From an uncultured Flavobacteriales bacterium (GTDB lineage Bacteria > Bacteroidota > Bacteroidia > Flavobacteriales_D > Parvicellaceae), in the NCBI GenBank assembly GCA_943787535.1, contig CALSMU010000013.1, forward strand, positions 179,370 to 243,369: a DNA stretch of 64,000 nucleotides, read 5' to 3'. The notes under the pieces are model-generated. The model was given only the letters and a program-made list of their open reading frames with translations. It was not told where the DNA came from and searched no databases. The position numbers and the translations under genes were made by a program. Below, one piece after another: positions 29,437 through 45,154 of the stretch (the first letter of the stretch is position 1; each line of letters opens with the position of its first letter).

Positions 29437-30770
29437 TAGCCGTTTATTCTGGTAACGGTTTCTAATTTTTCTTCAACAAATTCAATTTTCATTGTTCCAT
29501 CTTTATCCAATTCGGTCATCTTAACCTTTGCAGATTGATTTACCATTAGAGGATTGAACACTGTTTTAACCTTTACATAGTTGTTGGTGAATCCGAACAT
29601 TAGTCCATTGTCTTCAGAACCTTCAAATACAACTTTTTCTTCAAGGCTAACATTCGCTTCGTAAAATGCTCTTTTCTTTTTCTCACTCAAAATTCGAAGC
29701 ATGTTACTTCTTGCTTTTCTCACATCTTTTGGTACCACTCCTTCCATTCGTAGAGCAGTGGTATTGTCTCTTTCTGAGTAAGTAAATACATGTAAATACG
29801 AAACTGGGAGTTCGTTTAAAAAGTTATATGTTTTCATGAACTCTTCATCCGTCTCACCCGGGTAACCTACAATTACATCAACACCAATGCAAGCATCTGG
29901 CATTAGTTCTTTTATTTTTTCTACGCGCGAAACATATAAAGATGATGCATATCTTCTTCGCATGCTTTTCAGTAAAACATCCGAACCACTCTGAAGAGGA
30001 ATGTGGAAATGGGGTGCAAAACGTTTAGATTGAGAGACGAACTCTATTATTTCGTTACTCAATAAATTAGGCTCGATGGATGATATTCGGAATCGTTCTA
30101 CATCCTCAAGCTTATCCAATTCTTGGATTAAGGCAAAAAAGTTCTCATCCGTTCCATAGCCAAAATCACCTATGTTCACTCCAGTTAAAACAATTTCTTT
30201 AACATCTGTTTTAGCCAATTCTTTTGCTTTTGCAATAGTATCTTCTATGGATGCATTACGACCTCTACCTCTTGCTAGCGGTATAGTGCAAAACGAACAG
30301 AAGTAATTGCAGCCATCTTGTATCTTTAAAAAAGAGCGTGTTCTATCGGTTGTACTAAATCCTGGAACAAACTCTTTGGTTTCTTTAATTTCGTTGGATA
30401 GTATTTGCGTGTCTTGACGCTTGTGCAAGTCATTCAGGTAGTCTCCAACTTTAAATTTCTCATTGGCTCCTAATACCAAGTCAACACCTTTAATGTTCGC
30501 AATTTCTTGCGGTTTTAACTGAGCGTAACACCCTATTACAACTACAAATGCTTCGGGGTTGTAGTTCAGTGCTTTTCGGACAATGTTTCTACATTTCTTA
30601 TTAGCACTTTCCGTAACGGAGCACGTGTTGATTACATAAACATCTGCGCCAGAATCAAATTCTACTTTCGCATAACCACTATTTGTAAGTGATTGGGCAA
30701 TTGTGCTCGTTTCGGAAAAGTTGAGTTTACAACCTAGAGTGTAATATGCAGCGGTACCGTATTGATTCAC
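29436..30770 (-). CDS. mtaB: tRNA (N6-L-threonylcarbamoyladenosine(37)-C2)-methylthiotransferase MtaB
   Basis: YTLGCKLNFSE, radical-SAM CNYFCSFCTIPLARGRGR, TRAM-like C-terminus. Confidence 0.92.
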   Translation of the reverse strand: MNQYGTAAYYTLGCKLNFSETSTIAQSLTNSGYAKVEFDSGADVYVINTCSVTESANKKCRNIVRKALNYNPEAFVVVIGCYAQLKPQEIANIKGVDLVLGANEKFKVGDYLNDLHKRQDTQILSNEIKETKEFVPGFSTTDRTRSFLKIQDGCNYFCSFCTIPLARGRGRNASIEDTIAKAKELAKTDVKEIVLTGVNIGDFGYGTDENFFALIQELDKLEDVERFRISSIEPNLLSNEIIEFVSQSKRFAPHFHIPLQSGSDVLLKSMRRRYASSLYVSRVEKIKELMPDACIGVDVIVGYPGETDEEFMKTYNFLNELPVSYLHVFTYSERDNTTALRMEGVVPKDVRKARSNMLRILSEKKKRAFYEANVSLEEKVVFEGSEDNGLMFGFTNNYVKVKTVFNPLMVNQSAKVKMTELDKDGTMKIEFVEEKLETVTRING

Positions 30771-31053
30771 GGTACAAAGGTAATTGATTTTTTTGTTTTA
30801 AGGATTAGAATTTAATTGTCCGCCGTGTGAGTAGGTAAAAACTATCTACCAAAAAAAGTCTTTTATAACACAACCATTTTTTGATATTTACGTTCTTTTA
30901 TCATGGGATTTACAATTACCTACATACCATAAAGTCACTACATGGGCTTATATATGTAAGTTAGTCTATCCTAAAAGTTTGCTGCGATATTTTTGGAGGT
31001 CTCACGGGGTCTGTAAACCGCAGTGATACAGAGATATTAGCTATGACAAGAAA

Positions 31054-34000
31054 ATGAATAGGAGTTGTATTTTATTTTTGATTCTATTATCGAGCTTTTC
31101 TAGCTTCGTGCATTCTCAGACTCTTATAATAAACGAAGTCTCTAACGGTCCCTCTGGTAGTCAAGAATACGTAGAGTTTGTGGTGGTTGATACAAGTGCA
31201 ATATATGATTGTACTGGTTCAGCGCCTCCGTGTGTTGATATTCGTGGTTGGATATACGATGATAACAGTGGTTACCATGGAACATCTGGAATTGCATCTG
31301 GTTGTGCTCGTTTTACAAATGATCCTTTATGGTCTTGCGTTCCTGTTGGAACAATCATTTTACTTTACAACGGATTAGATCCAAACCCTGATATTCCAGC
31401 TGATGATGTTAGTTTATTGGATGGAAATTGTGTGCTTTCAGTTTCTTTAGAAAACCCACAGTTTTTTGAGTTTACAGAAACAACTCCGGGTGACATTGTT
31501 TGCAGTTACCCCGCAACTGGATGGGGAACGGATCCATCTCCGAATTGGTCGAATGTTGCAATGGCAAATGGTGGAGATTGTGCAAGGCTTGTTGATTTAA
31601 ATGGATGTGAAGTGTTTTCACTTTGCTATGGTGCTGCGAATCTGAATACAATGATTTATTTTACAGGAGTTGGAAATGATGATGTATGGTTTTTTAATGG
31701 CGGCGATCCAGCTGTGCAAGCAAACTGGAGTGAAGGGTGTGCTGGAGATATTGCTGTTTGTGGGTCGAATGATCAAACTCCGGGAGCGCCGAATAATATT
31801 GCAAATGCTGACTTTATTGGGCAGTTTAATAATAATTGTTCGGCAATACCTCCTCTAGTTGTTACTTCAACATCAATTGATGCTGGTTGTGGTTGTACAG
31901 GAACTGCTAGTATTACAGCGAGTGGTTCCATACCTGGATATACATACGAATGGTATGATATTGCTTGGCTGACTACTGGACAAACTAACGATATAGCGAC
32001 TAACTTATGTGCTGGAACTTATTACGGTATTGCTACTTCATCTATTGGTTGTGAAGATACAGTAACAGTTGTAATAAATTCTTCAGGAAGCATGACTTCT
32101 AGTAACGTTAATACTAATCCTTTGTGCTTTGGGTCATGTAATGGGACTGCCACAATCACACCCGCAGGAGGTGCAATACCTTATACTTATATTTGGAGCG
32201 GAAGTGCTAGTACTTCTGATTTTGCCAATGATTTGTGTACAGGATTTCATTCGGTTACTATTACCGATAATTTAGGGTGTGTTATTACGGATACCTTCTC
32301 GCTTTTTGAACCACCGGAACTTACTTTGGCAACAACTTTTGCAAGTCCTTTGTGTTTTGAAAGCTCAGATGGAAGTATTACGCTCACAGTTACTGGAGGT
32401 TCCGCAAATTACTCGTATTTATGGGACGATATTGGAGCTTCAATAACGCAGGATATATCAGGAATTCCAAGTGGAACTTATACTGTAGATGTAACTGATG
32501 CTAATAATTGTGTAGAAACTATTCAGACCGTTGTAACAGCTCCATTGCAGTTGACTCTCAATACTTTAACGGATTCAGTCTCGTGCAGTGGGTTGTGTGA
32601 TGGAGAAATTTCCGCGGCAATAACCGGTGGGGGCACTAGTCCTTTTCAATTTAGTTTAGATAATGTAAATTTTAATGGTTCCGGAAATTTTGGATCACTA
32701 TGCGAAGGTGTTTACTCCGTTTATATTTTGGATAATCAAGCATGTTTGGATTCGATTATTGTTGAAGTATTTGCTCAATCTGTTCTTGCTGATGCTTCTA
32801 TTGGCCCGGTTGTTAATCTATGCGAAAACATCTCTCCGGTGCAATTATTTGCTGCTGATCCCGGAGGTACTTGGTCCGGAACGGGTATTTCTAATAGTGC
32901 TTTAGGTATTTTCGACCCTGCGCTTGCTTCTTCAGGAATTCATCAAATTATCTATACTATTCCGGGTGTTTGCGGCGATGCTGACACTGTTTTAATTGAA
33001 GTTATACCAGCTGACAACGTTTTAATTACTGCAGTGGCTGATGTTTGTGAAGATGCCCCTAGTTTTAATCTCTCTGTGCAAAGTGGTGGAGGTTCATGGT
33101 TTGGAACTGGCATTACAAATAGTTTAACAGGTGAATTTTCTCCAGCGGTTTCTGGAGTTGGTTCTTTCATGGTTTATTATTCTACGAATGGAGTTTGTCC
33201 GCAAACTGATTCTGTAGAACAAGTGGTATGGTCTAATGATATTCCTATTATAGGTGTTGTTGAATCAATGTGTTTAAACGATGCACCTATTAATTTATCA
33301 GCCAATTTACAGGGAGGTACTTGGTCTGGATTGGGAATAACAGATCCAATTTTAGGAACATTCGATCCTTCGGTTGCTGGCTCAGGAAGCCATATAGTGA
33401 CGTACAGTTTAAATTCATTATGTGGTGGAAGTGATGTTATAATAATAATTGTAAATGGATCTCAGCCAGGCAATATTGTTCTTAGCAACGTAGTCGGATG
33501 TGTACCTTTAACAGTAAATTTTTCCAGTACCATTGCTGGAAATAATCAGAGCTGTTTGTGGGATTTAGGGAATGGAACTCAATTGAGTAATTGTAATCCC
33601 TTTGATTATACGTTTACAGAGCAAGGTTGTTATGATGTTTCTTTAACGATAGTAGATTCTATGGGCTGTGTTTCTATTATTTCGGCAGCATCACAAGTTT
33701 GTACTAATCAAAGTCCTGCTGCGGATTTTTCTTATTTGCCTTCAGAAGTTCTAGTTTATGATGCATTTGTGCAGTTTACAAATGAGAGTTCAAATGCAAG
33801 CAATTATGAATGGTTTTTTGATGATAACTTGATTGGCTCAGATGTAGATTTTTCCTATGATTTTGAAAATAATGGTGTTGGTGTATATCCTATTTGTTTG
33901 GTTGCCGAAAATACTTTAGGTTGTCAGGATACAATTTGTCAAGAAGTTAATGTGATAGCAGATTTTTCAATATATGTTCCCAATGCCTTTTCTCCGGATG

Positions 34001-34245
34001 GAGATGGAAATAATGAATATTTTTTCCCTGTACTTAATGGACCATTTCCTGAGGATTTCACGTTGTATGTTTTTGATAGATGGGGTGCGCTTATTTTTGT
34101 TACAAATGATCACCTTGCCAAATGGGATGGTTCTTTTCGCGGTAGGGCAGTACAACAAGATGTTTATGTTTGGAAAATTTCATACAGAGAAGCCGGTAAT
34201 GATGAGGAAAATGTTATTGGAGGTCACGTAAGCTTGATAAGGTAA
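31054..34245 (+). CDS. large secreted protein with lamin-tail-like N-terminus, SprB-type repeats, PKD-like domains and T9SS type B C-terminal domain
   Basis: LIINEVSNGPSGSQEYVEFVV; repeated CFGSCNGTATITPAGG...Y.Y.WS / VTDNLGC; GGTWSGTGIS repeats; C-term VPNAFSPDGDGNNEYF...VFDRWGALIFVTND...WDGSFRG...DVYVWKI. Confidence 0.9.
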   Translation: MNRSCILFLILLSSFSSFVHSQTLIINEVSNGPSGSQEYVEFVVVDTSAIYDCTGSAPPCVDIRGWIYDDNSGYHGTSGIASGCARFTNDPLWSCVPVGTIILLYNGLDPNPDIPADDVSLLDGNCVLSVSLENPQFFEFTETTPGDIVCSYPATGWGTDPSPNWSNVAMANGGDCARLVDLNGCEVFSLCYGAANLNTMIYFTGVGNDDVWFFNGGDPAVQANWSEGCAGDIAVCGSNDQTPGAPNNIANADFIGQFNNNCSAIPPLVVTSTSIDAGCGCTGTASITASGSIPGYTYEWYDIAWLTTGQTNDIATNLCAGTYYGIATSSIGCEDTVTVVINSSGSMTSSNVNTNPLCFGSCNGTATITPAGGAIPYTYIWSGSASTSDFANDLCTGFHSVTITDNLGCVITDTFSLFEPPELTLATTFASPLCFESSDGSITLTVTGGSANYSYLWDDIGASITQDISGIPSGTYTVDVTDANNCVETIQTVVTAPLQLTLNTLTDSVSCSGLCDGEISAAITGGGTSPFQFSLDNVNFNGSGNFGSLCEGVYSVYILDNQACLDSIIVEVFAQSVLADASIGPVVNLCENISPVQLFAADPGGTWSGTGISNSALGIFDPALASSGIHQIIYTIPGVCGDADTVLIEVIPADNVLITAVADVCEDAPSFNLSVQSGGGSWFGTGITNSLTGEFSPAVSGVGSFMVYYSTNGVCPQTDSVEQVVWSNDIPIIGVVESMCLNDAPINLSANLQGGTWSGLGITDPILGTFDPSVAGSGSHIVTYSLNSLCGGSDVIIIIVNGSQPGNIVLSNVVGCVPLTVNFSSTIAGNNQSCLWDLGNGTQLSNCNPFDYTFTEQGCYDVSLTIVDSMGCVSIISAASQVCTNQSPAADFSYLPSEVLVYDAFVQFTNESSNASNYEWFFDDNLIGSDVDFSYDFENNGVGVYPICLVAENTLGCQDTICQEVNVIADFSIYVPNAFSPDGDGNNEYFFPVLNGPFPEDFTLYVFDRWGALIFVTNDHLAKWDGSFRGRAVQQDVYVWKISYREAGNDEENVIGGHVSLIR

Positions 34246-34270
34246 TTAGGTTAACATTGTATTTATAGTT

Positions 34271-34278
34271 TATCTTTG
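34271..34278 (+). promoter_or_regulatory. -7 element TATCTTTG immediately upstream of trmD
   Basis: TAnnTTTG ending 4 nt before the ATG at 34283. Confidence 0.5.
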
Positions 34279-34282
34279 CACT

Positions 34283-34957
34283 ATGAGAATTGATATTATC
34301 AGCGCTGTTCCATCCTTATTAACAAGCCCATTTTCGGATTCAATTTTGAAAAGAGCCCAAAACAAAGGTTTAGTTGAAGTAGTTGTTCATGATTTGAGGG
34401 ATTATACGACTAATAAACATAAAAAAATAGATGATTATGCTTTTGGCGGAGGTGCCGGAATGGTAATGACTATTCAGCCAATTGATGCATGTATTACTGA
34501 ATTGAAAAGCCAAAGAGTTTATGATGAAGTAATTTATATGACACCAGATGGCGAAAAATTAAATCAACAGATTTGTAATAAATTATCATCCTTAACAAAC
34601 ATAATTGTTTTGTGTGGTCATTACAAAGGGATCGATGAGAGGGTACGGGAAATGTTTATTACAAGAGAGATTTCTATTGGGGACTATGTTCTTTCGGGAG
34701 GAGAGTTAGGTGCAGCAGTTCTTGCAGATAGCATTATTCGTTTGATCCCAGGGGTTTTAAATGATGAAACTTCAGCCTTAACAGATTCATTTCAAGATGA
34801 TTTATTATCCCCTCCAATATATACTAGACCAGCAGATTATAATGGAGAGAAAGTGCCAGAAATACTTACTTCTGGAAATGAGAGAGCTATTGAAGAATGG
34901 AGAATGCAACAAGCTATTGAACGAACAAAAAAACGCAGGCCTGATTTATTAGATTAA
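34283..34957 (+). CDS. trmD: tRNA (guanine(37)-N1)-methyltransferase
   Basis: [52 protein letters not shown]. Confidence 0.97.
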
Positions 34958-35039
34958 ATAATCTTGCATATGGTGTTGTATATAAATAATTATTCGTAAC
35001 ATTGCAGCCCGAAATTGAGGAAGAACAAACACATAAGTA

Positions 35040-35396
35040 ATGGATATTATTAAAGAAATAGAGAACGAAATTAACGAAATGAAAGATTGGCCAAAGTTTA
35101 GTGCTGGTGATACGTTAGTCGTTACATATAAGATTAAAGAGGGAGATAAAGAAAGATTACAGTCTTTTCAAGGTGTAGTTCTTCAAAGAAGAGGTGAAGG
35201 TGTTAACGAGACATTTACAATTCGTAAAATGTCAGGTAATACTGCAGTTGAAAGAATTTTCCCAATTGCTTCTCCATTTTTGGAAGAAATTAAAATTGTC
35301 AAGAAAGGTGCTGTTCGTAGATCACGTATCTTTTATCTGAGAAATAGAAGAGGTAAGTCTGCTAGAATTAAAGAAAAGAGAGTTTTTTCATCGTAA
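35040..35396 (+). CDS. rplS: 50S ribosomal protein L19
   Basis: FSAGDTLVVTYKIKEGDKERLQSFQGVVLQRRGEG...YLRNRRGKSARIKE. Confidence 0.97.
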   Translation: MDIIKEIENEINEMKDWPKFSAGDTLVVTYKIKEGDKERLQSFQGVVLQRRGEGVNETFTIRKMSGNTAVERIFPIASPFLEEIKIVKKGAVRRSRIFYLRNRRGKSARIKEKRVFSS

Positions 35397-35417
35397 GAAA
35401 TTTTTATTGGAATATTT

Positions 35418-35447
35418 TAAAAGCACCAATTAGTGGTGCTTTTTTTG
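35418..35447 (+). terminator. Rho-independent terminator of trmD-rplS
   Basis: aaagcaccaattagtggtgctttttttg hairpin plus T-tract. Confidence 0.88.
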
Positions 35448-35502
35448 TTATGAATAATAAACAAATATTTTACCTAAAAAGTTTTTGGTTGTTTATTACT
35501 TC

Positions 35503-35510
35503 TATTTTTG
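35503..35510 (+). promoter_or_regulatory. -7 element TATTTTTG for the MbnP/MbnH-containing operon
   Basis: TAnnTTTG match with TTTG at 35484-35487 upstream; lies 4 nt before in-frame GTG 35515. Confidence 0.5.
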
Positions 35511-35514
35511 TAGC

Positions 35515-35901
35515 GTGAGATACCCCTTTTTTATAAGTATTTACTTTTTTATAACTGTGTTGTTTTCGGGTACATTTTGGCAAACTTTTATTGTCTTTGA
35601 TTTTCTATTTCATCAAGAAGAGATTATTAGTGAAAAGTGCATTAATAAGGATAGACCAGAAATGCATTGTCATGGAGCATGTTATTTGAATAAACAATTA
35701 GCTATAGTTGAGATTTCGGTACCTCCTGGTGAGAAAGTTTCAACTGTATCGCTTGACTTTTGGTTACTTTCTTACCAAGATAAATATCAAGTCAGGTTCA
35801 TGGGAGATCTTGAAGTGAATTTACAGGTTATGAATAATTCAAAAAAAGACTTGGCTTTGGGCCAGTTATCCGATATTTTCCATCCACCGCAATTTATTTA
35901 A
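35515..35901 (+). CDS. small membrane-anchored protein with CxHCHGACYLNKQL motif, possible metal-related function
   Basis: ORF given as 35485..35901 (TTG start); GTG at 35515 better placed relative to the -7 element; N-terminal TM then CINKDRPEMHCHGACYLNKQLA. Confidence 0.65.
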   Translation: MRYPFFISIYFFITVLFSGTFWQTFIVFDFLFHQEEIISEKCINKDRPEMHCHGACYLNKQLAIVEISVPPGEKVSTVSLDFWLLSYQDKYQVRFMGDLEVNLQVMNNSKKDLALGQLSDIFHPPQFI

Positions 35902-35933
35902 GTACCTAAATATTAATTAAATAAATTTGATAA

Positions 35934-36869
35934 ATGAGAAAGTTATTGTTATTGACTTTTCTCTTGATCAGTCTTGTCGGGTTGGCATGTGAACATTGTA
36001 ATGTTTACTTAAATATTTCACCAGGAGATTATAAAAATTCATTTGGAATTTTTATGCGGTCTCGCACTATGCTGGGGGATTATAATTTAAGTGGACAGAA
36101 TTATTTAAAACACACAAGCCATAATTCGCAATCTGGATTTTTAGGGAATCAAGTCAGAGAAGAATACAACATATATGAAGTAAGAGGGAATTTTTACTTT
36201 AAAGAAAGGTGGAACACTATTATTGTGTTGCCATTTGTTCAAAATGTCCAATACATTAATGATATTGCTAAATATAATGTTAGCGGTGTAGGTGATCCTA
36301 TCCTTTTGCAACGTTTCCAGCTTTACAGCACAAAACTTACAGAGGACACTTCTAAATTTGTGCATAGAGTAACTGTTGGAATTGGCATAAAAATACCATT
36401 AGGAAGTATTGAGAGAGAATATCTTTATGGAAAACCAAATCTTGACCTTCAACCTGGTACGGGAAGTTGGGATGCATTGGGCTCTTTTTCTTATGTTGTA
36501 AGAAAACAAAAAGTTGGATTAATTTTTAATTCAAATATTAAATTAAATTCTGCTAATGAAAATAAATACCAATATGGAAATACTACAAACGTAACGGCTA
36601 ACGTTTTTTATATGTTTCGTATAAGAAAAGCTACTTTTGTTCCTTTTTATGGTACTTATTATGAAAAAGCAAATTATGATAGAAACTCGGATATTTATAC
36701 TGATACAGGAGGGAGTTCCTGGTATAGCGATATAGGGTTTAAGTTAAATGTGAAAAATTTATTATTAACCTCTAATGTGCAATTTGCTTTTGAAAATAAT
36801 TTAAATGGAATAAATCAACTTGTTCCAAAAGCAAGATTAATCATTGGATTAAATTACTTATTGAAATGA
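35934..36869 (+). CDS. outer-membrane beta-barrel-like hypothetical protein in operon with MbnP-like gene
   Basis: Signal peptide; CEHCNVYLNISPGDYKNSFGIFMRSR; alternating beta-strand pattern; stop overlaps the next ATG (ATGA at 36866). Confidence 0.7.
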   Translation: MRKLLLLTFLLISLVGLACEHCNVYLNISPGDYKNSFGIFMRSRTMLGDYNLSGQNYLKHTSHNSQSGFLGNQVREEYNIYEVRGNFYFKERWNTIIVLPFVQNVQYINDIAKYNVSGVGDPILLQRFQLYSTKLTEDTSKFVHRVTVGIGIKIPLGSIEREYLYGKPNLDLQPGTGSWDALGSFSYVVRKQKVGLIFNSNIKLNSANENKYQYGNTTNVTANVFYMFRIRKATFVPFYGTYYEKANYDRNSDIYTDTGGSSWYSDIGFKLNVKNLLLTSNVQFAFENNLNGINQLVPKARLIIGLNYLLK

Positions 36870-37711
36870 AAAAATTAAACTTTATAGTTTTAATGTTAGC
36901 TGTTTTACCTCTGGTAATTGCCAGCTGTAAAAAGAAAGGGTGCACAGATGCAACGGCTTCAAATTATGATGTCAATGCTAAAAGAGACGATGGCACTTGT
37001 ACATATGACCCACATGTAGATCCGCACATTACGCTCAATTTTGAGCATAATTTTGATGGTTCAATTGTTTCTAGTTCGAGTTTTAATCAGTTAATTTATT
37101 CAAACCAAGCTGGAAACACCCTCAGTGTTGAGCATCTAGAATATTTAGTTTCGAATATAAAATTGTACAAGTCAAATGGAGATAGTTTAGTCTTTTCGGA
37201 TTATAACTTGTTTAACTTGTCGGATGTTAATTCTCTTTCTTTTGATTTGTCTAACCATGTTGAAGAAGGGAGTTATACAGGAATCGGTTTTGACTTTGGA
37301 TTTAATTCTTCGAATAATATTTCTGGCAGCTATACTGATTTGAATGCTGTAAACTGGAGTTGGCCAGATATGTTAGGAGGTGGATACCATAACATGAAAC
37401 TTGAAGGTAAATTTATAGATACTAATACAGATACAATATCTTATGCTTATCATATGGGAAAAGCTAGAGAAATAACTGCTACTGATACTACTTTTCACGA
37501 TAACCATGCGTTTATCAAATTGAATACTTCTTTCAATATTGAAAATGATGCTTCAATTTCAATTGATATGAATATTGCTGAATGGTTTAAAAACCCAAAT
37601 ACATGGGACTTAAATGCATATAACAACATGTTGATGCCAAATTACACGGCGCAAATGATGATGAAAGATAATTCAAGTAATGTGTTTTCTTGGGGTGGAA
37701 TTGTACAATAA
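36866..37711 (+). CDS. MbnP family lipoprotein (copper-binding-protein-like)
   Basis: Lipobox IASC; GCTDATASNYDVNAKRDDGTC module; LNFEHNFDGS...LVSNIKLYKSNGD...GIGFDFGFN...VNWSWPDMLGGGYHNMKLEGKF. Confidence 0.85.
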   Translation: MKKLNFIVLMLAVLPLVIASCKKKGCTDATASNYDVNAKRDDGTCTYDPHVDPHITLNFEHNFDGSIVSSSSFNQLIYSNQAGNTLSVEHLEYLVSNIKLYKSNGDSLVFSDYNLFNLSDVNSLSFDLSNHVEEGSYTGIGFDFGFNSSNNISGSYTDLNAVNWSWPDMLGGGYHNMKLEGKFIDTNTDTISYAYHMGKAREITATDTTFHDNHAFIKLNTSFNIENDASISIDMNIAEWFKNPNTWDLNAYNNMLMPNYTAQMMMKDNSSNVFSWGGIVQ

Positions 37712-37718
37712 AAATAAT

Positions 37719-37742
37719 AAAGCGTCCAGAAATGGGCGCTTT
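37719..37742 (+). terminator. terminator/attenuator-like hairpin between the MbnP-like and di-haem peroxidase genes
   Basis: aaagcgtcc-agaaat-gggcgcttt stem (one G-U pair); poor T-tract. Confidence 0.5.
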
Positions 37743-37774
37743 ATGTTGTGATTTTATCAGATTCATATTATAAT

Positions 37775-37782
37775 TAACTTTG
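37775..37782 (+). promoter_or_regulatory. -7 element TAACTTTG upstream of the di-haem peroxidase gene
   Basis: TAnnTTTG match 22 nt before the ATG at 37804; no well-spaced -33 seen. Confidence 0.4.
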
Positions 37783-37803
37783 CCCTGTTTAATAAACTAG
37801 GCC

Positions 37804-38931
37804 ATGAGATTTAACTATTTCATAATAATAATTGCTTTTTCTCTTGCTTCATGTAAAAAATATGAAGGATGCACAGATCCTGCGGCCTTAAATTATGATG
37901 CGGCAGCAAATAGGGATAATGGATCTTGTAAATATGTTGGGGTAAATTACCCTTATGAATTAGATATTCCGAGTCAATTTGAACAACTTTTACCGGCACC
38001 AAGTATACCTGCAAATAATCCTCTGACAGAGGCTGGTGTATTGTTGGGAAGAAAATTGTTTTATGATCCGATCTTGTCTGGTAATAATACTCAGAGTTGT
38101 GCAGATTGTCACAAACAAGCCAACGGCTTTACGGATAATGGTTATCAGTTTAGTACCGGAATTGACTTGTTGGAAGGAGATCGAAATGCAATGCCTTTAT
38201 TTAATATGGCATGGAATTACAATGATACATACTTTTGGGATGGAAAGGCTTATGGTCTGGAAAATCAGGTGTTTGAGCCAGTTGCTAACCCCGTAGAAAT
38301 GCATGAAACCTGGCCCAATGCTGTTGCTAAATTGCAGTCAGATGACGAATATCCTTCTATGTTTAATACTGCTTTTGGAACGGAGACAATAGATTCCAAT
38401 TTGGTCACAATGGCAATTGCTCAATTTGAAAGAACGCTAATTTCTGGCGACTCTAGGTTTGATCAATACATACGAGGTGAGATTTCTTTAACTCCCTCTG
38501 AGTTTGCTGGTTATAATGTTTTTATGGATGAAGCAGGAGGAGATTGCTTTCACTGTCATGGAGATATAAATAATCCACTTTGGACCGATAATATATATCA
38601 TAACAATGCACTGGATGCTACATTTTCAGATTTGGGTAGAGGTGCAGTAACCGGTAATGCTGCAGATAATGGAAAGTTTAAAACCCCCTCACTTCGAAAT
38701 TTATCTTATACTGCTCCCTATATGCATGATGGAAGGTTTGCAACATTAGACGAAGTCATTAATCACTATGCTGTTGGTTTGCAAAATTCTGCAACCGTAG
38801 ATCCATTAATGAAAAATGTATTGTCAGGAGGTAATCAACTTAATCCCCAGGATAGAATTGATTTAAAAGCATTTTTATTGTCGCTTAATGATCCCAGTTT
38901 TATAACAAACCCTGATTACCAAGCTCCTTAG
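37804..38931 (+). CDS. di-haem cytochrome-c peroxidase / MbnH-MauG-like lipoprotein
   Basis: Lipobox LASC; GCTDPAALNYDAAANRDNGSC module; CADCH and CFHCH haem motifs; FKTPSLRNLSYTAPYMHDGRFATLDEVINHY. Confidence 0.9.
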   Translation: MRFNYFIIIIAFSLASCKKYEGCTDPAALNYDAAANRDNGSCKYVGVNYPYELDIPSQFEQLLPAPSIPANNPLTEAGVLLGRKLFYDPILSGNNTQSCADCHKQANGFTDNGYQFSTGIDLLEGDRNAMPLFNMAWNYNDTYFWDGKAYGLENQVFEPVANPVEMHETWPNAVAKLQSDDEYPSMFNTAFGTETIDSNLVTMAIAQFERTLISGDSRFDQYIRGEISLTPSEFAGYNVFMDEAGGDCFHCHGDINNPLWTDNIYHNNALDATFSDLGRGAVTGNAADNGKFKTPSLRNLSYTAPYMHDGRFATLDEVINHYAVGLQNSATVDPLMKNVLSGGNQLNPQDRIDLKAFLLSLNDPSFITNPDYQAP

Positions 38932-38932
38932 A

Positions 38933-39577
38933 TTATCTTAATTTTTTAATTTCACTTTTCCTACCAATTGAAGCAGTAATATAATCTGTTTTTATTGAGG
39001 CTCCTCTCGCTGGAGAATATTCCCTACCATAAAAAATAATTTGTAAATGCAGCTTATTCCAAATTTCCCGAGGAAACAATCTTTTGGCGTCTTTTTCAGT
39101 TTGGTCTACATTTTTTCCATTGGTTAAATTCCAACGATACATTAATCTATGAATATGTGTATCCACAGGAAAAGCAGGAACACCAAATGCTTGACTCATA
39201 ACAACTGAAGCAGTTTTATGTCCGACACCAGGCAGTTCTTCCAACTGTTCGAAAGATTTAGGTACCCTACCATTGTACTTGTCTAAAAGGATGTGTGATA
39301 AATCATATATAGCCTTCGATTTTCGAGGAGACAAACCACATGGTCTAATAATTTCCTTTATTTCTTCTGCAGAATGTTTAATCATTTCAGATGGAGTATT
39401 TGCCATCTTGAATAGGGCAGGAGTAACTTTATTTACACGTACATCAGTGCATTGCGCAGATAGTAAAACGGCTATTAATAATGTATATTCATCTGTGTGG
39501 TCTAGCGGAATAGGAGTCTCTGGGTAGAGTTTCTCTAATTCGTCAATGATGAATTGAACTTTTTCTTGTTTATTCAT
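38933..39577 (-). CDS. nth: endonuclease III
   Basis: LLSAQCTDVRVNKVTPALF, LEELPGVGHKTASVVMSQAFGVPAFPVDTHIHRL; 4Fe-4S Cys pattern of classical Nth not visible at C-terminus. Confidence 0.9.
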   Translation of the reverse strand: MNKQEKVQFIIDELEKLYPETPIPLDHTDEYTLLIAVLLSAQCTDVRVNKVTPALFKMANTPSEMIKHSAEEIKEIIRPCGLSPRKSKAIYDLSHILLDKYNGRVPKSFEQLEELPGVGHKTASVVMSQAFGVPAFPVDTHIHRLMYRWNLTNGKNVDQTEKDAKRLFPREIWNKLHLQIIFYGREYSPARGASIKTDYITASIGRKSEIKKLR

Positions 39578-40345
39578 CTATATCGTTTTTACAAACTCTT
39601 TCTGTAACCAACCAATTTTACCATCGCCGAATCGGATTTCATACCATAGTTCGGTTTGGTCTAATATTTTAACCTTTGTTCCTTCGTGCAGCACAAATGA
39701 AACACTTGAGTTTGCTGATGGTTGAGACATTAATTCAATGGATGGTTTGAAAATAATGGCATCTTCATTTGACATTAATCTGCTTTTATGGAGGCCAGAA
39801 AAAATAATGGAGAATATTCCAAATATCATAGAGAGAACAGCAGTATAGAAGGTTAGTTTTTTCAGTTTTCTTGATTTAGAAAATAGGTACAGAATCAACA
39901 GCAGACTACCAATGATAAATAGGTAAATTGAATTGTATGACCAGTAATTGGGGGCATTACTAACCCAGGTAAAAAACCAGTCGCTCAATTGTATCGAGTC
40001 ATTAATTTTATTTTTATCCGAAACTCTTTTGTTTGCTAACGTTAAGTTATGCAAGATATTTGGATTGCCGGGAGATAGTTTTAAAGCCTTTTCGTAATAA
40101 AGAATGGTGTTAGGAATGTCATCTATCTTATAGTAAGAATTCCCAAGGTTTAAGAAAAGCTCTGGAGAATAGTACTCTGCGCAAAGTTGCTTATATGAGT
40201 TAATTGCGGCCTCATAATTATGCTCTTCATATTGCTTGTTTCCCTCATTAAAAACACCTGTAGGGTCAGAGATATTCGCCTTGATAGAAACCGATGCAAA
40301 TAAAATAAAAATGAATATAATCCTACCTCTTAACATGTTTTTCAA
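39578..40345 (-). CDS. BatE-like TPR plus SH3 domain protein
   Basis: TPR NLGNSYYKIDDIPNTILYYEKALKLSPGNPNILHNL, TM segments, C-terminal SH3-like; position in Bat operon. Confidence 0.85.
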   Translation of the reverse strand: MKNMLRGRIIFIFILFASVSIKANISDPTGVFNEGNKQYEEHNYEAAINSYKQLCAEYYSPELFLNLGNSYYKIDDIPNTILYYEKALKLSPGNPNILHNLTLANKRVSDKNKINDSIQLSDWFFTWVSNAPNYWSYNSIYLFIIGSLLLILYLFSKSRKLKKLTFYTAVLSMIFGIFSIIFSGLHKSRLMSNEDAIIFKPSIELMSQPSANSSVSFVLHEGTKVKILDQTELWYEIRFGDGKIGWLQKEFVKTI

Positions 40346-42068
40346 TTTTGTTAATCAGCGTTTTGGTCGTTGTTAAAGTTGTCTCAGCATCACTATGCGA
40401 AATAGGAGCAAAACGAGCCATTTCGCAATCGTTCAATACTTTTAGCAATGAGGCAATGGTTGCAGAATCTATACTTATTTTAGTTAGTTCTTCTTCAATT
40501 CTTTTTTTATTCAATTCAGAAACGGGTATTTTAAATTTATGCGATAAATATCCATCAATTGCATTATGAAGTTCTTCGAAATATGCTAAATCATTTTTCT
40601 CTTTTAGATGTTTTTCTGCATTGGCTAATCTGGCTAATGCAGATTTTGATGCGTTTTTATGCGTTAGTTCAACTTGATTTTTTTCTTGTCCCGTTATTCT
40701 TTTCGCAAAGAAGAAAAGAAAAAAGAGAAGAAAGGGACTCCCTAGTGCCAAAAAATAATTCGTCGTTCCAAAAAAGAAAGCGTTTACGGGGGTTAATTCC
40801 GTTTCATGCTCTATATGCCTTATCTCATTACTTAACAATTCTACATCTTGCTTATTTCCGGAAGAAGTATTGGTTAAGTCTTCGCTTACCCCTTTTAAAA
40901 CATTAATTTTTACCGCATCAGAAGTAAGTGTTTTATATTTTCCTGTGGCTGTATTAAAATAACTGAATTCAATTGCGTCGATATCAAAAATGCCATGGTG
41001 CCTTGGAATAATTAGATAGGTAAATTCTTTACTCCCACTTAATCCTGATGAACTTACTTTAACATTGTTTTTTATTTCGGGGTCAAAGACTTCAAAGTCT
41101 GTTGGGAAGTTAATTTCTGGTGCATTCAATTGTTTTAAATTTCCTTTTCCAGAAATTTTAATTTTTAAATCTATTGGCTCATTTGTTTTAAGTTCCGTTG
41201 TAGAGTACGTAACATCGAGTTTGTAGCCTTTACCTACTTGTGATTCGAAGCTTGGTGGCGAATTGTTTGGCAGTACTTTTACGGTTAACTCTTGGTTATT
41301 GCTTTTTACATCTATAACCGATCCTTGATTGAAAAAACTTCTGTTTACACGGGCGGTAATATCGAATTCTGGAATTGTAATTTTACCGGTTTTTTGAGGA
41401 AATACAATTTCCTTTTTTAAGGTGTAGATATTGTATCTTACCCCATTTATGGCTTCTTGTTTAGTTGGCCAACCATTGCTTCCTGCGGTAATTTCCTCCG
41501 TCCACACACCATCAATCATGGCGAAATCATAATTATCTAATGCTATATTTCCATAACGTGAGTATATTTTATACGTTACCAAAACAACTTCTCCTTTATA
41601 TGGAGCTTTATTGCTTACAGAAATTCTCGTAAAAAGATTTGTGTTTTTTGGTGGAGCGATATTTAATTTAGGGTCACTAGCACCTACCTGCACAGTGAAA
41701 TAAGAACTTTTTGTTTCTATGTCTCCTGCAATAAAAGTTGCTGGAGTCAATTTGAAAGTACCTTTTTTGTTTGCTTTTAAATTAATTGAATATTCAAAAG
41801 AATGCGTGGCTCTTCCGTTTATATATTGATGTGATTCTCCGTTAGATTCACGAACAAAAGAAAATCCTTCATAAGTAGGTCGCTGAATTCCTGTGATACT
41901 AAAATTATCTTGCGAGGAAATAGAGTAGGTTAATTTGAAGACATCCCCAACCTGAACGGATTTGTTCGATGTGTTAATACTGGTCGTAAATTTTTGCGCA
42001 CTTCCTTGAGTAACAATAAATATATTTGCTACAAAAAACAATAAGCTTATTTTGAAATTAATCTTCAT
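40323..42068 (-). CDS. BatD family protein
   Basis: Oxygen-tolerance-type N-terminal domain (VQVGDVFKLTYSIS...F...SHQYINGRATHSFEYSINLKANKKGTFKLTPA), C-terminal TM, operon context. Confidence 0.9.
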   Translation of the reverse strand: MKINFKISLLFFVANIFIVTQGSAQKFTTSINTSNKSVQVGDVFKLTYSISSQDNFSITGIQRPTYEGFSFVRESNGESHQYINGRATHSFEYSINLKANKKGTFKLTPATFIAGDIETKSSYFTVQVGASDPKLNIAPPKNTNLFTRISVSNKAPYKGEVVLVTYKIYSRYGNIALDNYDFAMIDGVWTEEITAGSNGWPTKQEAINGVRYNIYTLKKEIVFPQKTGKITIPEFDITARVNRSFFNQGSVIDVKSNNQELTVKVLPNNSPPSFESQVGKGYKLDVTYSTTELKTNEPIDLKIKISGKGNLKQLNAPEINFPTDFEVFDPEIKNNVKVSSSGLSGSKEFTYLIIPRHHGIFDIDAIEFSYFNTATGKYKTLTSDAVKINVLKGVSEDLTNTSSGNKQDVELLSNEIRHIEHETELTPVNAFFFGTTNYFLALGSPFLLFFLFFFAKRITGQEKNQVELTHKNASKSALARLANAEKHLKEKNDLAYFEELHNAIDGYLSHKFKIPVSELNKKRIEEELTKISIDSATIASLLKVLNDCEMARFAPISHSDAETTLTTTKTLINKIEKHVKR

Positions 42069-42078
42069 TCTAAGTTAA

Positions 42079-42975
42079 CTACCAGTCTTTCGTGTTGTTA
42101 TCTCCTTTCTTTTTTCCTTTTTGTTTTGCGATTTTAAGCAAAATATTCTTTTCGTCCTCGTTTACTGCGTCTAAATCTTTTTTAATTTGCCCCTTAGACA
42201 TTTTTCCTTCTATTTCTTTTTCTTCCCCTTTGTTTTTATCTCCAGGTTTTGGCTTATTTTCTTTCTCCTCTTTGTCTTCATTTTTCTCATCCTCTTTGTC
42301 TCCTTCTCCTTCTCCTTCTCCTTCTTTTTTCTCCTTATTTCCTTCTTTTTCCTCTTCCGATTTATCTCCGTCTTTATTGTCCTCGTTCTCTTTCTTGTTC
42401 TTGTTTTCTTCCTTTTTATCCTCGTTTTTCTTTTCGTCTTCGTCTTTACCTTCTTTTTGATTTTTATTTTCTTGTTGCTGTTGTTGTTTTAATTTACTCA
42501 ATGCATAAGACAAATTATAGCGAGTGTCTTCATCCTTTGGATTGTTTCTAAGTGAATTTTTATAGGCTTCAATACTGTTTTTTAAGTAGTCGGAACTTTT
42601 CTTTTGCTCTTCAGGATTTTGATTTTGTGAACTCCCAGCAAACCTCTTTAGGAATACATTTCCTAGGTTATGATATGCTTTTGCTTTGTCATTTTTGTTT
42701 TCTAGCGTTCCAGCATATTGCTCATAGTATTCCGCTGCTTTTTCAAAATCACCACTTCTATAGGCAGAGTTTGCTGCATTGTATAAGGCTCCGTTGTATT
42801 GGTTATTTGCTTCGAAAGCTTGTTCAAATTTATCTTGCGCCGTTCCGTAGTCTCCATTGTTGTAGGCATCAACTCCTCGATTTAGATCTAGTTTTTCTGT
42901 GGTTTGTCCAATGCTAATTGAAAATGTCATGAAGAGACAAATGGATAGGGTAATATGTTTAATGTTCCAATTCAT
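42079..42975 (-). CDS. BatC-like TPR protein with a long Lys/Glu/Asp low-complexity tail
   Basis: ALYNAANSAYRSGDFEKAAEYYEQ; operon context; KKEENKNKKENEDNKDGDKSEEEKEGNKEKKEGEGEGEGDKEDEKNEDKEEKENK tail. Confidence 0.88.
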   Translation of the reverse strand: MNWNIKHITLSICLFMTFSISIGQTTEKLDLNRGVDAYNNGDYGTAQDKFEQAFEANNQYNGALYNAANSAYRSGDFEKAAEYYEQYAGTLENKNDKAKAYHNLGNVFLKRFAGSSQNQNPEEQKKSSDYLKNSIEAYKNSLRNNPKDEDTRYNLSYALSKLKQQQQQENKNQKEGKDEDEKKNEDKKEENKNKKENEDNKDGDKSEEEKEGNKEKKEGEGEGEGDKEDEKNEDKEEKENKPKPGDKNKGEEKEIEGKMSKGQIKKDLDAVNEDEKNILLKIAKQKGKKKGDNNTKDW

Positions 42976-44135
42976 ATTTCTTCGAATAATTTAAGTTTAT
43001 CTACTATTTTAGTTCTCTTTTCATTCATGAAAAGCTCAATTAATAGAAGTAATAAACCTACTGCTAGAAAAGGTTGAAATTGATCTTCGTATCCAGTGTA
43101 TTTCTCGCTACTTAAAGTCGATTTTTCTATCGTATTTATTTGGTTGATTAATCCTTCTAACCCAATACTCATTCCATTTGCTCGTGTATAAGAACCTTGG
43201 CCAGCATTGGATATATTGATTAAATTCTCTTCATTTAATTTTGTTAAAACAGTATTTTCGTTTTCATCTTTTTTGTTTCCTGTTTTTTTGCCTCTTTTAT
43301 AAATTGGAATAGGGACACCTTTTGTGGTTCCCATTCCGATGGTATGAACTACAACTCCTAGGTCGTTTGCTTTTTCAGCAGCAACAATACCTTGTTCTTC
43401 ATGATCTTCGCCATCAGAGAATACAACAATTGTTTTATTGGCTCCATTTTCAAAATTGAAAGAAGTCATGCACTCGTTTATGGCTAATCCTATGTCCGTA
43501 CCTTGAGCCGACATCATTCTTGTAGTAATATTTTGGGTGAATGTTTTCGCAACATGGTAGTCAGGAGTTATGGGCAGATGCTTGTAGGCACTCCCAGCAA
43601 AAACAACAATTCCAATATGATCACCGTGCAGTTTGTCTATTAGTTTTTCTATCGAAAGTTTCGAGATTTTTAATCGACTATATCCAGCAGATAAATCTTC
43701 TGCTAGCATAGAGTTACTGACATCAATCGCAAGCATAATATCAATTCCTTTACTTTCTATATTTTTTTCATTTTTACCGTATTGTGGATTTGCCATAGCA
43801 ATTATTAAAAAAGACACACCCAAGCGGAACAGTATAAATTTAATTAATGACTTGCCAGTGGAGTATCCGCTAAATAAAGAGGGTAGTAACTGTTTATCGG
43901 CATATCTCTTTATAGCTTTGTTTTTCCAGGATATTACTCGGAAAAAGAGAAGGAGCATAAACGGAATCATGATAAAGAAATAGAGCGCCCATTGATTTTC
44001 GAATCGAAATTCGGGCACTTCTTCTGTTACATAATAATACGTTGCATAACCAATAGACCAGAAGAGAATTTCGACTATTGCAATTACAATTATTGCAGTG
44101 GTTGTGCTGTAGCGATATTTATATAATTGACTCAA
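42972..44135 (-). CDS. BatB VWA domain membrane protein
   Basis: GIDIMLAIDVSNSMLAEDL (MIDAS DxSxS), VVFSDGEDHEEQG. Confidence 0.92.
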   Translation of the reverse strand: MSQLYKYRYSTTTAIIVIAIVEILFWSIGYATYYYVTEEVPEFRFENQWALYFFIMIPFMLLLFFRVISWKNKAIKRYADKQLLPSLFSGYSTGKSLIKFILFRLGVSFLIIAMANPQYGKNEKNIESKGIDIMLAIDVSNSMLAEDLSAGYSRLKISKLSIEKLIDKLHGDHIGIVVFAGSAYKHLPITPDYHVAKTFTQNITTRMMSAQGTDIGLAINECMTSFNFENGANKTIVVFSDGEDHEEQGIVAAEKANDLGVVVHTIGMGTTKGVPIPIYKRGKKTGNKKDENENTVLTKLNEENLINISNAGQGSYTRANGMSIGLEGLINQINTIEKSTLSSEKYTGYEDQFQPFLAVGLLLLLIELFMNEKRTKIVDKLKLFEEI

Positions 44136-45154
44136 GAAATACCTTTTAAAATAGTTGATTTAGTAAGAAATTCCAATAATATGAGACCCAAACCTAAGAG
44201 TAAAAAATGTAGGTTTTTTTCAGGCAAGTCTACTTCGTACTCGATTGATTTAATTTTTTCCGTTTCTAATAAATCTATTTCATCGTAAATTGCTTTTAAC
44301 TTTTCGTTATCTGTAGCACGAAAATATTTACCTCCTGTCATAGAGGAGATCTCAGTCAGTGTTTTTTCATCGATTTCGACATCTACCATGTCGTAAACAT
44401 ATTTATTGGTAATTGGATTAATTCCAACGGGCATTCTAGCTTTTCCGTTAGTTCCAACTCCAATGGTATAAACGCGAATTCCAAATTCTTTCGCCATTTC
44501 TGCAGCAGTCAATGGATGTATTTTTCCATTTCGATTTACCCCATCTGTTAACAAAATAATTACCCTGCTTGGTGCGGTGCTCTCTCTTAGTCGATTTACG
44601 GCTGTTGCGAGTCCCATCCCAACGGCAGTTCCATCTGGAACAACATCTCTTTGCATTTCTTCTAATAACTCCAGAACAATTCGGTTGTCAGTAGTCAATG
44701 GACATTGTGTGTAGCTTTCAGCTTGAAAAACTACTAGTCCAATTCTGTCATTTTTTCTTTTAGCAATAAAATCCTTTGCTACGCTTTTAGAAGCTTCAAA
44801 CCTATCGGGTTTAAAGTCAGTAGCCAACATACTCCCTGATGCATCCATAGCTACAACTATGTCTATTCCTTCACTAAACTGTTCTATATAAGAATCAGAA
44901 TTTACATTTATTTGTGGTCTAGCTAAGGCGATAATAAAAAGACCAATTGCAATTGTTTTTGTGCCAAAAAATAGATGATGTAGCTTGGGTAAAAACCCAC
45001 TACTAATATCGCTTATTTGCTTGTAGCTTGAAGTAGCTAGAGTAGCCGCTTTATTTTTTTGAGTTATGATATACCAAAATACAATGAAAGGAATTGACAG
45101 CAAGCCCCATAGGATTTCTGGATTAGCAAATTGATATGTGTTAAAAAGTCCCAA
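44132..45154 (-). CDS. BatA VWA domain membrane protein
   Basis: GIDIVVAMDASGSMLATDFKPDR (MIDAS), ILLTDGVNRNG. Confidence 0.93.
   Translation of the reverse strand: MGLFNTYQFANPEILWGLLSIPFIVFWYIITQKNKAATLATSSYKQISDISSGFLPKLHHLFFGTKTIAIGLFIIALARPQINVNSDSYIEQFSEGIDIVVAMDASGSMLATDFKPDRFEASKSVAKDFIAKRKNDRIGLVVFQAESYTQCPLTTDNRIVLELLEEMQRDVVPDGTAVGMGLATAVNRLRESTAPSRVIILLTDGVNRNGKIHPLTAAEMAKEFGIRVYTIGVGTNGKARMPVGINPITNKYVYDMVDVEIDEKTLTEISSMTGGKYFRATDNEKLKAIYDEIDLLETEKIKSIEYEVDLPEKNLHFLLLGLGLILLEFLTKSTILKGIS

Follow-up and report, generated by a model that had tools for sequence, protein, structure and literature searches.

A putative copper-scarcity operon in a Parvicellaceae bacterium, with an MbnP/MbnH pair, a predicted outer-membrane channel and a candidate leader open reading frame

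What could be the function of four consecutive genes in a flavobacterial genome, two of which resemble a copper protein and its modifying enzyme from methanotrophs? The genes lie in a stretch of 64,000 nucleotides (here called the window; contig CALSMU010000013.1 of assembly GCA_943787535.1, positions 179,370 to 243,369, forward strand) from an uncultured Flavobacteriales bacterium of the family Parvicellaceae. An earlier note, made from the sequence alone, had interpreted them as a surface locus for the acquisition or handling of copper, and the open reading frame (ORF) listing contains all four ORFs that it named (a small Cys-containing ORF, an exported barrel, a lipoprotein and a di-haem lipoprotein) on the plus strand with the motifs it quoted. 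Our analysis points, with a probability of roughly 0.6, to a Bacteroidota copper-scarcity operon that would comprise an arrest leader, a copper channel, a Cu(I)-binding MbnP and a Trp-oxidising MbnH. The features concerned are the following.

35485..35901, plus strand: small ORF, candidate copper-responsive leader (CruR/CutF-like); TTG at 35485, GTG at 35515 and GTG at 35557 are possible starts
35638..35682, plus strand: codons of C-x9-C-x-G-x-C in the small ORF, candidate copper ligands; C, C, G and C invariant in 74 of 74 aligned members
35884..35889, plus strand: codons of Pro-Pro, three residues from the stop; candidate arrest site (family alignment)
35902..35933, plus strand: gap of 32 bp from the candidate leader ORF to the barrel gene, at the short end of the family range
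35934..36869, plus strand: predicted outer-membrane beta-barrel channel, CxxC near the predicted mature N-terminus (AlphaFold2 model, PDB fold matches, family A3)
36866..37711, plus strand: MbnP-family lipoprotein (PF20243; fold match to 7l6g)
37355..37363, plus strand: codons of W164-S165-W166, the WxW motif (alignments with relatives and 7l6g)
37451..37453, plus strand: codon of His196, candidate copper ligand (aligned with a His of 7l6g)
37804..38931, plus strand: MbnH-family di-haem lipoprotein (TIGR04039, 6e1c, alignment, tree)
38098-38112 and 38545-38559, plus strand: codons of the haem motifs C99-H103 and C248-H252
38767-38769, plus strand: codon of the axial ligand Tyr322

The assignment of the lipoprotein to the MbnP family is well supported and agrees with the earlier identification. 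PF20243 matched it with an E value of 1e-28 (100.9 bits, cut-off 27) and at no other place in this genome, and the best PDB matches of its AlphaFold2 model (mean predicted local distance difference test score, pLDDT, 85.9) were the six chains of 7l6g (E 5e-8 to 2.5e-7), with template-modelling (TM) scores of only about 0.5. A profile of MbnP relatives reached one relevant PDB sequence, again 7l6g, weakly (E 0.007), and set its WNW opposite the WxW motif. In the solved MbnP, the first WxW Trp, to which W164 corresponds, is oxidised in an MbnH-dependent way before Cu(I) is bound. The Trp position on which the earlier proposal hinged is kept in the window protein, and both W164 and His196 were invariant in 45 aligned Bacteroidota MbnPs (His196 in 74 of 77 in a wider set). 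A GCTDxxAxNYDxxAxxDxGxC module without a Pfam match follows the lipoprotein Cys in both MbnP (36866-37050) and MbnH (37804-37950). A plasmid search with MbnP found nothing.

The di-haem enzyme is likewise well supported as a member of the MbnH family. Its best family was TIGR04039 (E 6e-71, the sole match of this family in the genome) and its best PDB match 6e1c. Tyr322 was aligned with a Tyr in 6e1c and with a Met in the peroxidase 3o5c, and the match coordinates place it at MauG residue 294, a Tyr that serves as ligand there; W145, Q155 and E165 were invariant in relatives. In a quick tree that included three bacterial cytochrome c peroxidases (bCcPs) and left out MauG, all Bacteroidota MbnHs grouped with 6e1c apart from the three peroxidases (Shimodaira-Hasegawa-like approximate likelihood ratio test, 100), so that the enzyme sides with MbnH and not with the peroxidases tested, as the earlier note had expected. 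Two tandem MbnH genes follow one MbnP in 24 of the 80 order-level MbnP loci (e.g. L035, L073 and L107); the first and second copies fall mostly in different clades, and the single MbnH of the window belongs to the second-copy lineage.

We surveyed 248 Bacteroidota genomes that were at least 90% complete and obtained 86 MbnP places above the cut-off. Within 5 kb of these the small ORF was found at 37, the barrel gene at 28 and both at 26, always on the same strand, and the neighbours are thus conserved across genomes, as had been proposed. With an MbnP profile restricted to the domain, leaving out the N-terminal GCTD...DDGSC module common to MbnP and MbnH, MbnH accompanied 72 of the 80 MbnP loci in the order, the other eight lying near contig ends with one exception. 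Co-location of the four genes is more than chance; the Fisher tests of genome-level co-occurrence gave p values of about 1e-8 to 1e-11 without correction for phylogeny, and closely related genomes inflate the counts. Two gene orders were observed, small ORF-barrel-MbnP-MbnH as in the window and small ORF-MbnP-MbnH-barrel, with the small ORF first in every set. Other arrangements of MbnP genes were also seen. In many Flavobacteriaceae (L242-L275) MbnP and MbnH follow two conserved lipoprotein-like genes without a Pfam match, beside the suf operon, while MbnPs of a short class (about 207-240 residues; L034, L043, L046, L051, L069, L085, L086 and L095) occur with a YHYH-domain secreted protein and, in some of these loci, also with a small membrane protein rich in His and an extracytoplasmic function (ECF) sigma factor.

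A copper role of the locus is supported by association, and independently of MbnP, through the other neighbours of the small-ORF family. All of the 20 best-scoring loci with a small ORF and neither MbnP nor barrel have a TonB receptor gene among the next three genes downstream. Fifteen of 27 receptors in those and similar loci contain an OprC-type pair of CxxxM and, 165-183 residues further on, HxM, which none of 28 control receptors of the same genomes has; the copper site of OprC is formed by Cys143, Met147, His323 and Met325 (PMC8610252). Elsewhere, genes for SCO1, PCuAC and DUF411 proteins follow the small ORF and the barrel gene. In one genome (L237) an OprC-motif receptor gene, preceded by a small ORF and a YtkA-type gene, is directly followed on its own strand by another small ORF with MbnP and MbnH. 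No PCuAC was detected in the window's own genome at E 0.001.

The barrel protein, which the earlier note had listed as an undescribed partner, stands as a conserved neighbour, and a fold can now be assigned to it: it is predicted to be a 12-strand outer-membrane channel of the COG4313/FapF-like kind. Its AlphaFold2 model (mean pLDDT 81) contains about 12 long strands, and the best PDB fold matches found by Foldseek were FapF (5o68) and the COG4313 channel (4rl8), with TM scores on the target of about 0.7. It is COG4313-type by predicted fold; no Pfam or NCBIfam family matched its sequence, identity to 4rl8 and 5o68 is 12-14%, and it differs from them in its copper-operon context and in a CDxC or CxxC with which the mature part begins in most members. 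Distant barrel relatives in L215-L218 adjoin DUF3179 genes, without small ORF or MbnP.

The small ORF has no match in Pfam or NCBIfam. The earlier note had considered it an undescribed working partner at the cell surface; the better explanation, and the most likely one, is a CruR/CutF-like leader ORF that responds to copper, since its C-terminal Pro-Pro is invariant, it comes first in the gene set and a long gap usually separates it from the next gene. Pro-Pro lies at most eight residues from the stop in all 84 unique family members and occurs only five times elsewhere in these sequences (10,562 residues); it was present in the last ten residues of 15 of 1355 control genes (1.1%), compared with 74 of 74 aligned members. 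The sole invariant residues of the 74-member alignment are C, C, G, C, P and P. The distance from the Cys motif to Pro-Pro is 62-74 in the 77 members with the standard motif, which extends to C-x9-CxGxC(H/Y)L, and the family ends in F[HR]PP and has a hydrophobic N-terminal segment. The median gap to the next gene was 102 bp, while the other genes are about 4 bp apart (p 3e-23). A Cys metal motif, Pro-Pro near the stop and first place in copper operons, the features of a CruR/CutF-type leader, are thus all present in the family. In one further Bacteroidota genome (G300, locus L351, 1338-1863 and 2006-2962) a DUF2946-like ORF ending in RGPP heads an MbnP gene, and therefore a second leader type precedes MbnP.

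Two leader types already described can be compared with this family. In Proteobacteria CruR heads operons for OprC-type, SCO, PCuAC and MbnPH proteins, its Cys motif senses copper and its C-terminal RAPP arrests translation (PMC9426467), an arrest later shown in vitro (PMC12992588). CruR of Bordetella pertussis (DUF2946) shares with the window family the short exported-type ORF, the Cys motif, a Pro-Pro placed three residues ahead of the stop codon, the place as first gene and usually a long gap, but has CxxC instead of C-x9-CxGxC, a spacing of 45 instead of about 62-74 to Pro-Pro, and RAPP instead of F[HR]PP. CutF-like proteins (PMC9973294) are likewise shorter than 150 residues, with Pro-Pro near the C-terminus and a metal motif, and are encoded upstream of copper genes. 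Since 19% of the 5,334 CutF-like proteins counted there are from Bacteroidota, a leader of this kind is not new to the phylum; our family may be one of the 29 clusters of that survey, whose main text makes no mention of MbnP (PMC9973294). The OprC-like receptors downstream of the family in other loci have CxxxM and HxM about 180 residues apart, as in OprC (PMC8610252), whereas beside the window leader such a receptor is missing and the channel and MbnPH take its place.

Put together, these features suggest the following mechanism. When copper is scarce, the nascent chain of the leader would pause at its C-terminal Pro-Pro and allow expression of the downstream genes, and binding of copper to C-x9-CxGxC would end the pause and turn expression off. 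The predicted 12-strand channel may then pass copper or a small copper complex across the outer membrane. MbnH, with its MauG/MbnH-type Tyr ligand, would oxidise W164 of MbnP to kynurenine, and the MbnP lipoprotein would bind Cu(I) at a site including this residue and His196, from which copper would go to cuproenzymes.

The pair is closest in design to systems already described from methanotrophs. MbnP and MbnH of Methylosinus trichosporium OB3b (7l6g, 6e1c) share with the window pair the MbnP fold, the first WxW Trp, the Tyr-ligand di-haem enzyme and adjacent genes; in contrast to them the window MbnP has no Met two positions ahead of the Trp and does have an N-terminal Cys module and a GGGYHxM stretch, the two window proteins are lipoproteins, and a leader ORF and a channel are added. 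CorA/CorB and MopE/SACCP likewise combine a kynurenine-containing copper protein with a co-transcribed di-haem enzyme, are copper-repressed and surface-associated, and the copper site of CorA uses two His (PMC3912023); in the window protein kynurenine would be expected by analogy. According to a methanobactin survey, the MbnP sequence is not markedly similar to MopE/CorA (PMC3621798). No MbnA, MbnB or MbnC of methanobactin synthesis was noticed among the ORFs listed for 30000-45000, for which no profile search was made.

Several observations weigh against the proposed operon. The window MbnP is unmatched by TIGR04052 (MbnP_like_WxW), although 26 of 29 relatives match; the Met usual in relatives two residues before the first Trp (MxWxW) is Val; model confidence is low at the WxW loop (pLDDT under 50); and the enzyme scores 239.1 bits with TIGR04039, below the curated cut-off of 362.85 bits. 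Trp-to-Phe MbnPs exist beside intact MbnH. As to the leader, the gap after the window ORF is just 32 bp and the start codon is unclear, position 35503, given as the start in the earlier note, not being a start codon. A genome of the same genus (G002, locus L032) has several indels in this ORF, reflecting either a broken gene or an assembly error, while the other three genes are intact. No homology between the small-ORF family and DUF2946 was detected, the PF11162 (CruR/DUF2946) profile matching neither any of 18 family members nor anything in the window's genome. The end F[HR]PP differs from the experimentally tested RAPP and RGPP, and in one assay reported in the CutF survey the proline-rich end of CutF caused no strong stalling (PMC9973294).

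Of the explanations that depart from this model, one leaves the rest of the copper scheme unchanged and lets the small ORF encode a functional protein anchored in the membrane, either a Cu(I) chaperone or a partner of the channel. The conserved C-x9-CxGxC(H/Y)L, the hydrophobic N-terminal segment, the constant company of copper-type genes and the 32-bp gap, which would suit an ordinary operon, are consistent with such a protein. However, a chaperone would have no need for a Pro-Pro near the stop that is invariant in 84 of 84 members while the tail around it varies, and the first position in every set and the long gap in most loci give a CruR-like layout (PMC9426467). We therefore consider the chaperone rather unlikely as the main role, the two roles being compatible with each other. 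Import is favoured over defence. Export or sequestration of excess copper is suggested by DUF411 and cation-efflux genes near the leader in some genomes and by CutF-like ORFs that also head genes for resistance-nodulation-division (RND) efflux systems and multicopper oxidases (PMC9973294), but TonB receptors, many of which carry the import site of OprC (PMC8610252), are the commonest non-MbnP neighbours of the leader, SCO1 and PCuAC are delivery proteins, and the MbnP-like CorA and MopE of methanotrophs are copper-repressed (PMC3912023), which makes a defence locus distinctly improbable. To an ordinary cytochrome c peroxidase beside unrelated hypothetical genes we give almost no weight. It would account for the CCP_MauG Pfam match and for the bCcPs among the strong PDB matches, but not for the near-constant pairing with MbnP and the conserved neighbours, and the Tyr in place of the peroxidase Met together with the grouping with 6e1c, in the tree with three bCcPs, led us to reject an ordinary bCcP.

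The remaining alternative concerns the substrate of MbnH, which in this subgroup could modify another MbnP residue or another protein instead of the WxW Trp, the site having departed from that of the methanotroph model. The window-type MbnPs of named Flavobacteriaceae pass from WxW through WxV to FxV (the latter for example in Polaribacter or Winogradskyella), and Phe occupies the W164 column in 11 of them (L242, L252, L254, L259, L263, L265, L269, L271, L272, L273 and L280). The MbnPs with MEWP were left out of this count, since shifting them by two residues turns their Trp into the first one of MxW. On the tree, in which ten of the Phe rows were scored (L280 was not), the change occurred twice independently, and the neighbouring MbnH keeps the haem motifs, W145, Q155, E165 and Y322. 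The lack of the preceding Met in the window subgroup, its extra His175, Met169 and Met177 in the GGGYHxM stretch and Tyr174, invariant in 77 of 77 MbnPs, point in the same direction. On the other hand, WxW is intact in the window MbnP and its nearest relatives, and the loss may mark site decay in one Flavobacteriaceae clade only. Either the site decays with MbnH kept or MbnH has another target, and Trp oxidation is therefore not to be assumed for every member of the subgroup; for the subgroup as a whole, we regard a different target as unlikely. The proposed copper-scarcity operon, with W164 as the substrate in the window, is retained below.

The borders and surroundings of the operon were examined by pattern scan and ORF listing. 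The scan found four hairpins, compared with 1.8 expected by shuffling, and two of them concern the locus:

35419..35443, plus strand: terminator-like hairpin 3' of the upstream ribosomal protein gene (pattern scan, which is no evidence of function alone)
37717..37744, plus strand: hairpin of 12 pairs, with a weak T run, in the gap between the MbnP and MbnH genes (pattern scan, predicted only)

The former is the likely upstream border of the operon. Inside it, the MbnP start overlaps the barrel stop by four bases, while the MbnH gene may be partly uncoupled because of the hairpin and weak T run that precede it. A Bacteroidota-type promoter TAnnTTTG at 35503-35510 was dropped as a candidate, since it clashes with the TTG start and has a short spacing, and an Rfam search of the window gave no match. 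Upstream of the ribosomal protein gene, a large gene occupies positions 31054-34245 of the window; it combines SprB repeats and PKD domains with a C-terminal domain of the type IX secretion kind.

For the Bacteroidota, a broader proposal can be put forward tentatively, at somewhat less than even odds. The phylum would possess a class of its own of arrest peptides that sense copper (C-x9-CxGxC ... F[HR]PP-stop), show no detectable relationship to DUF2946 and switch MbnP/MbnH, the channel and OprC-type receptors. Within the same MbnP subgroup, MbnH would in some lineages have been freed from the WxW Trp to act on another residue or substrate. A survey of leader ORFs ending in RAPP or RGPP found copper-related ones in many lineages, not in Bacteroidota (PMC12992588), a gap that the F[HR]PP-ending family would fill, if true, and it raises the question of whether ends other than RxPP arrest Bacteroidota ribosomes in a copper-dependent manner. 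Copper sites of the putative kynurenine type would be extended to a large phylum, together with a defined outer-membrane channel, and the natural Trp-to-Phe MbnPs beside intact MbnH offer a direct test of what MbnH is for.

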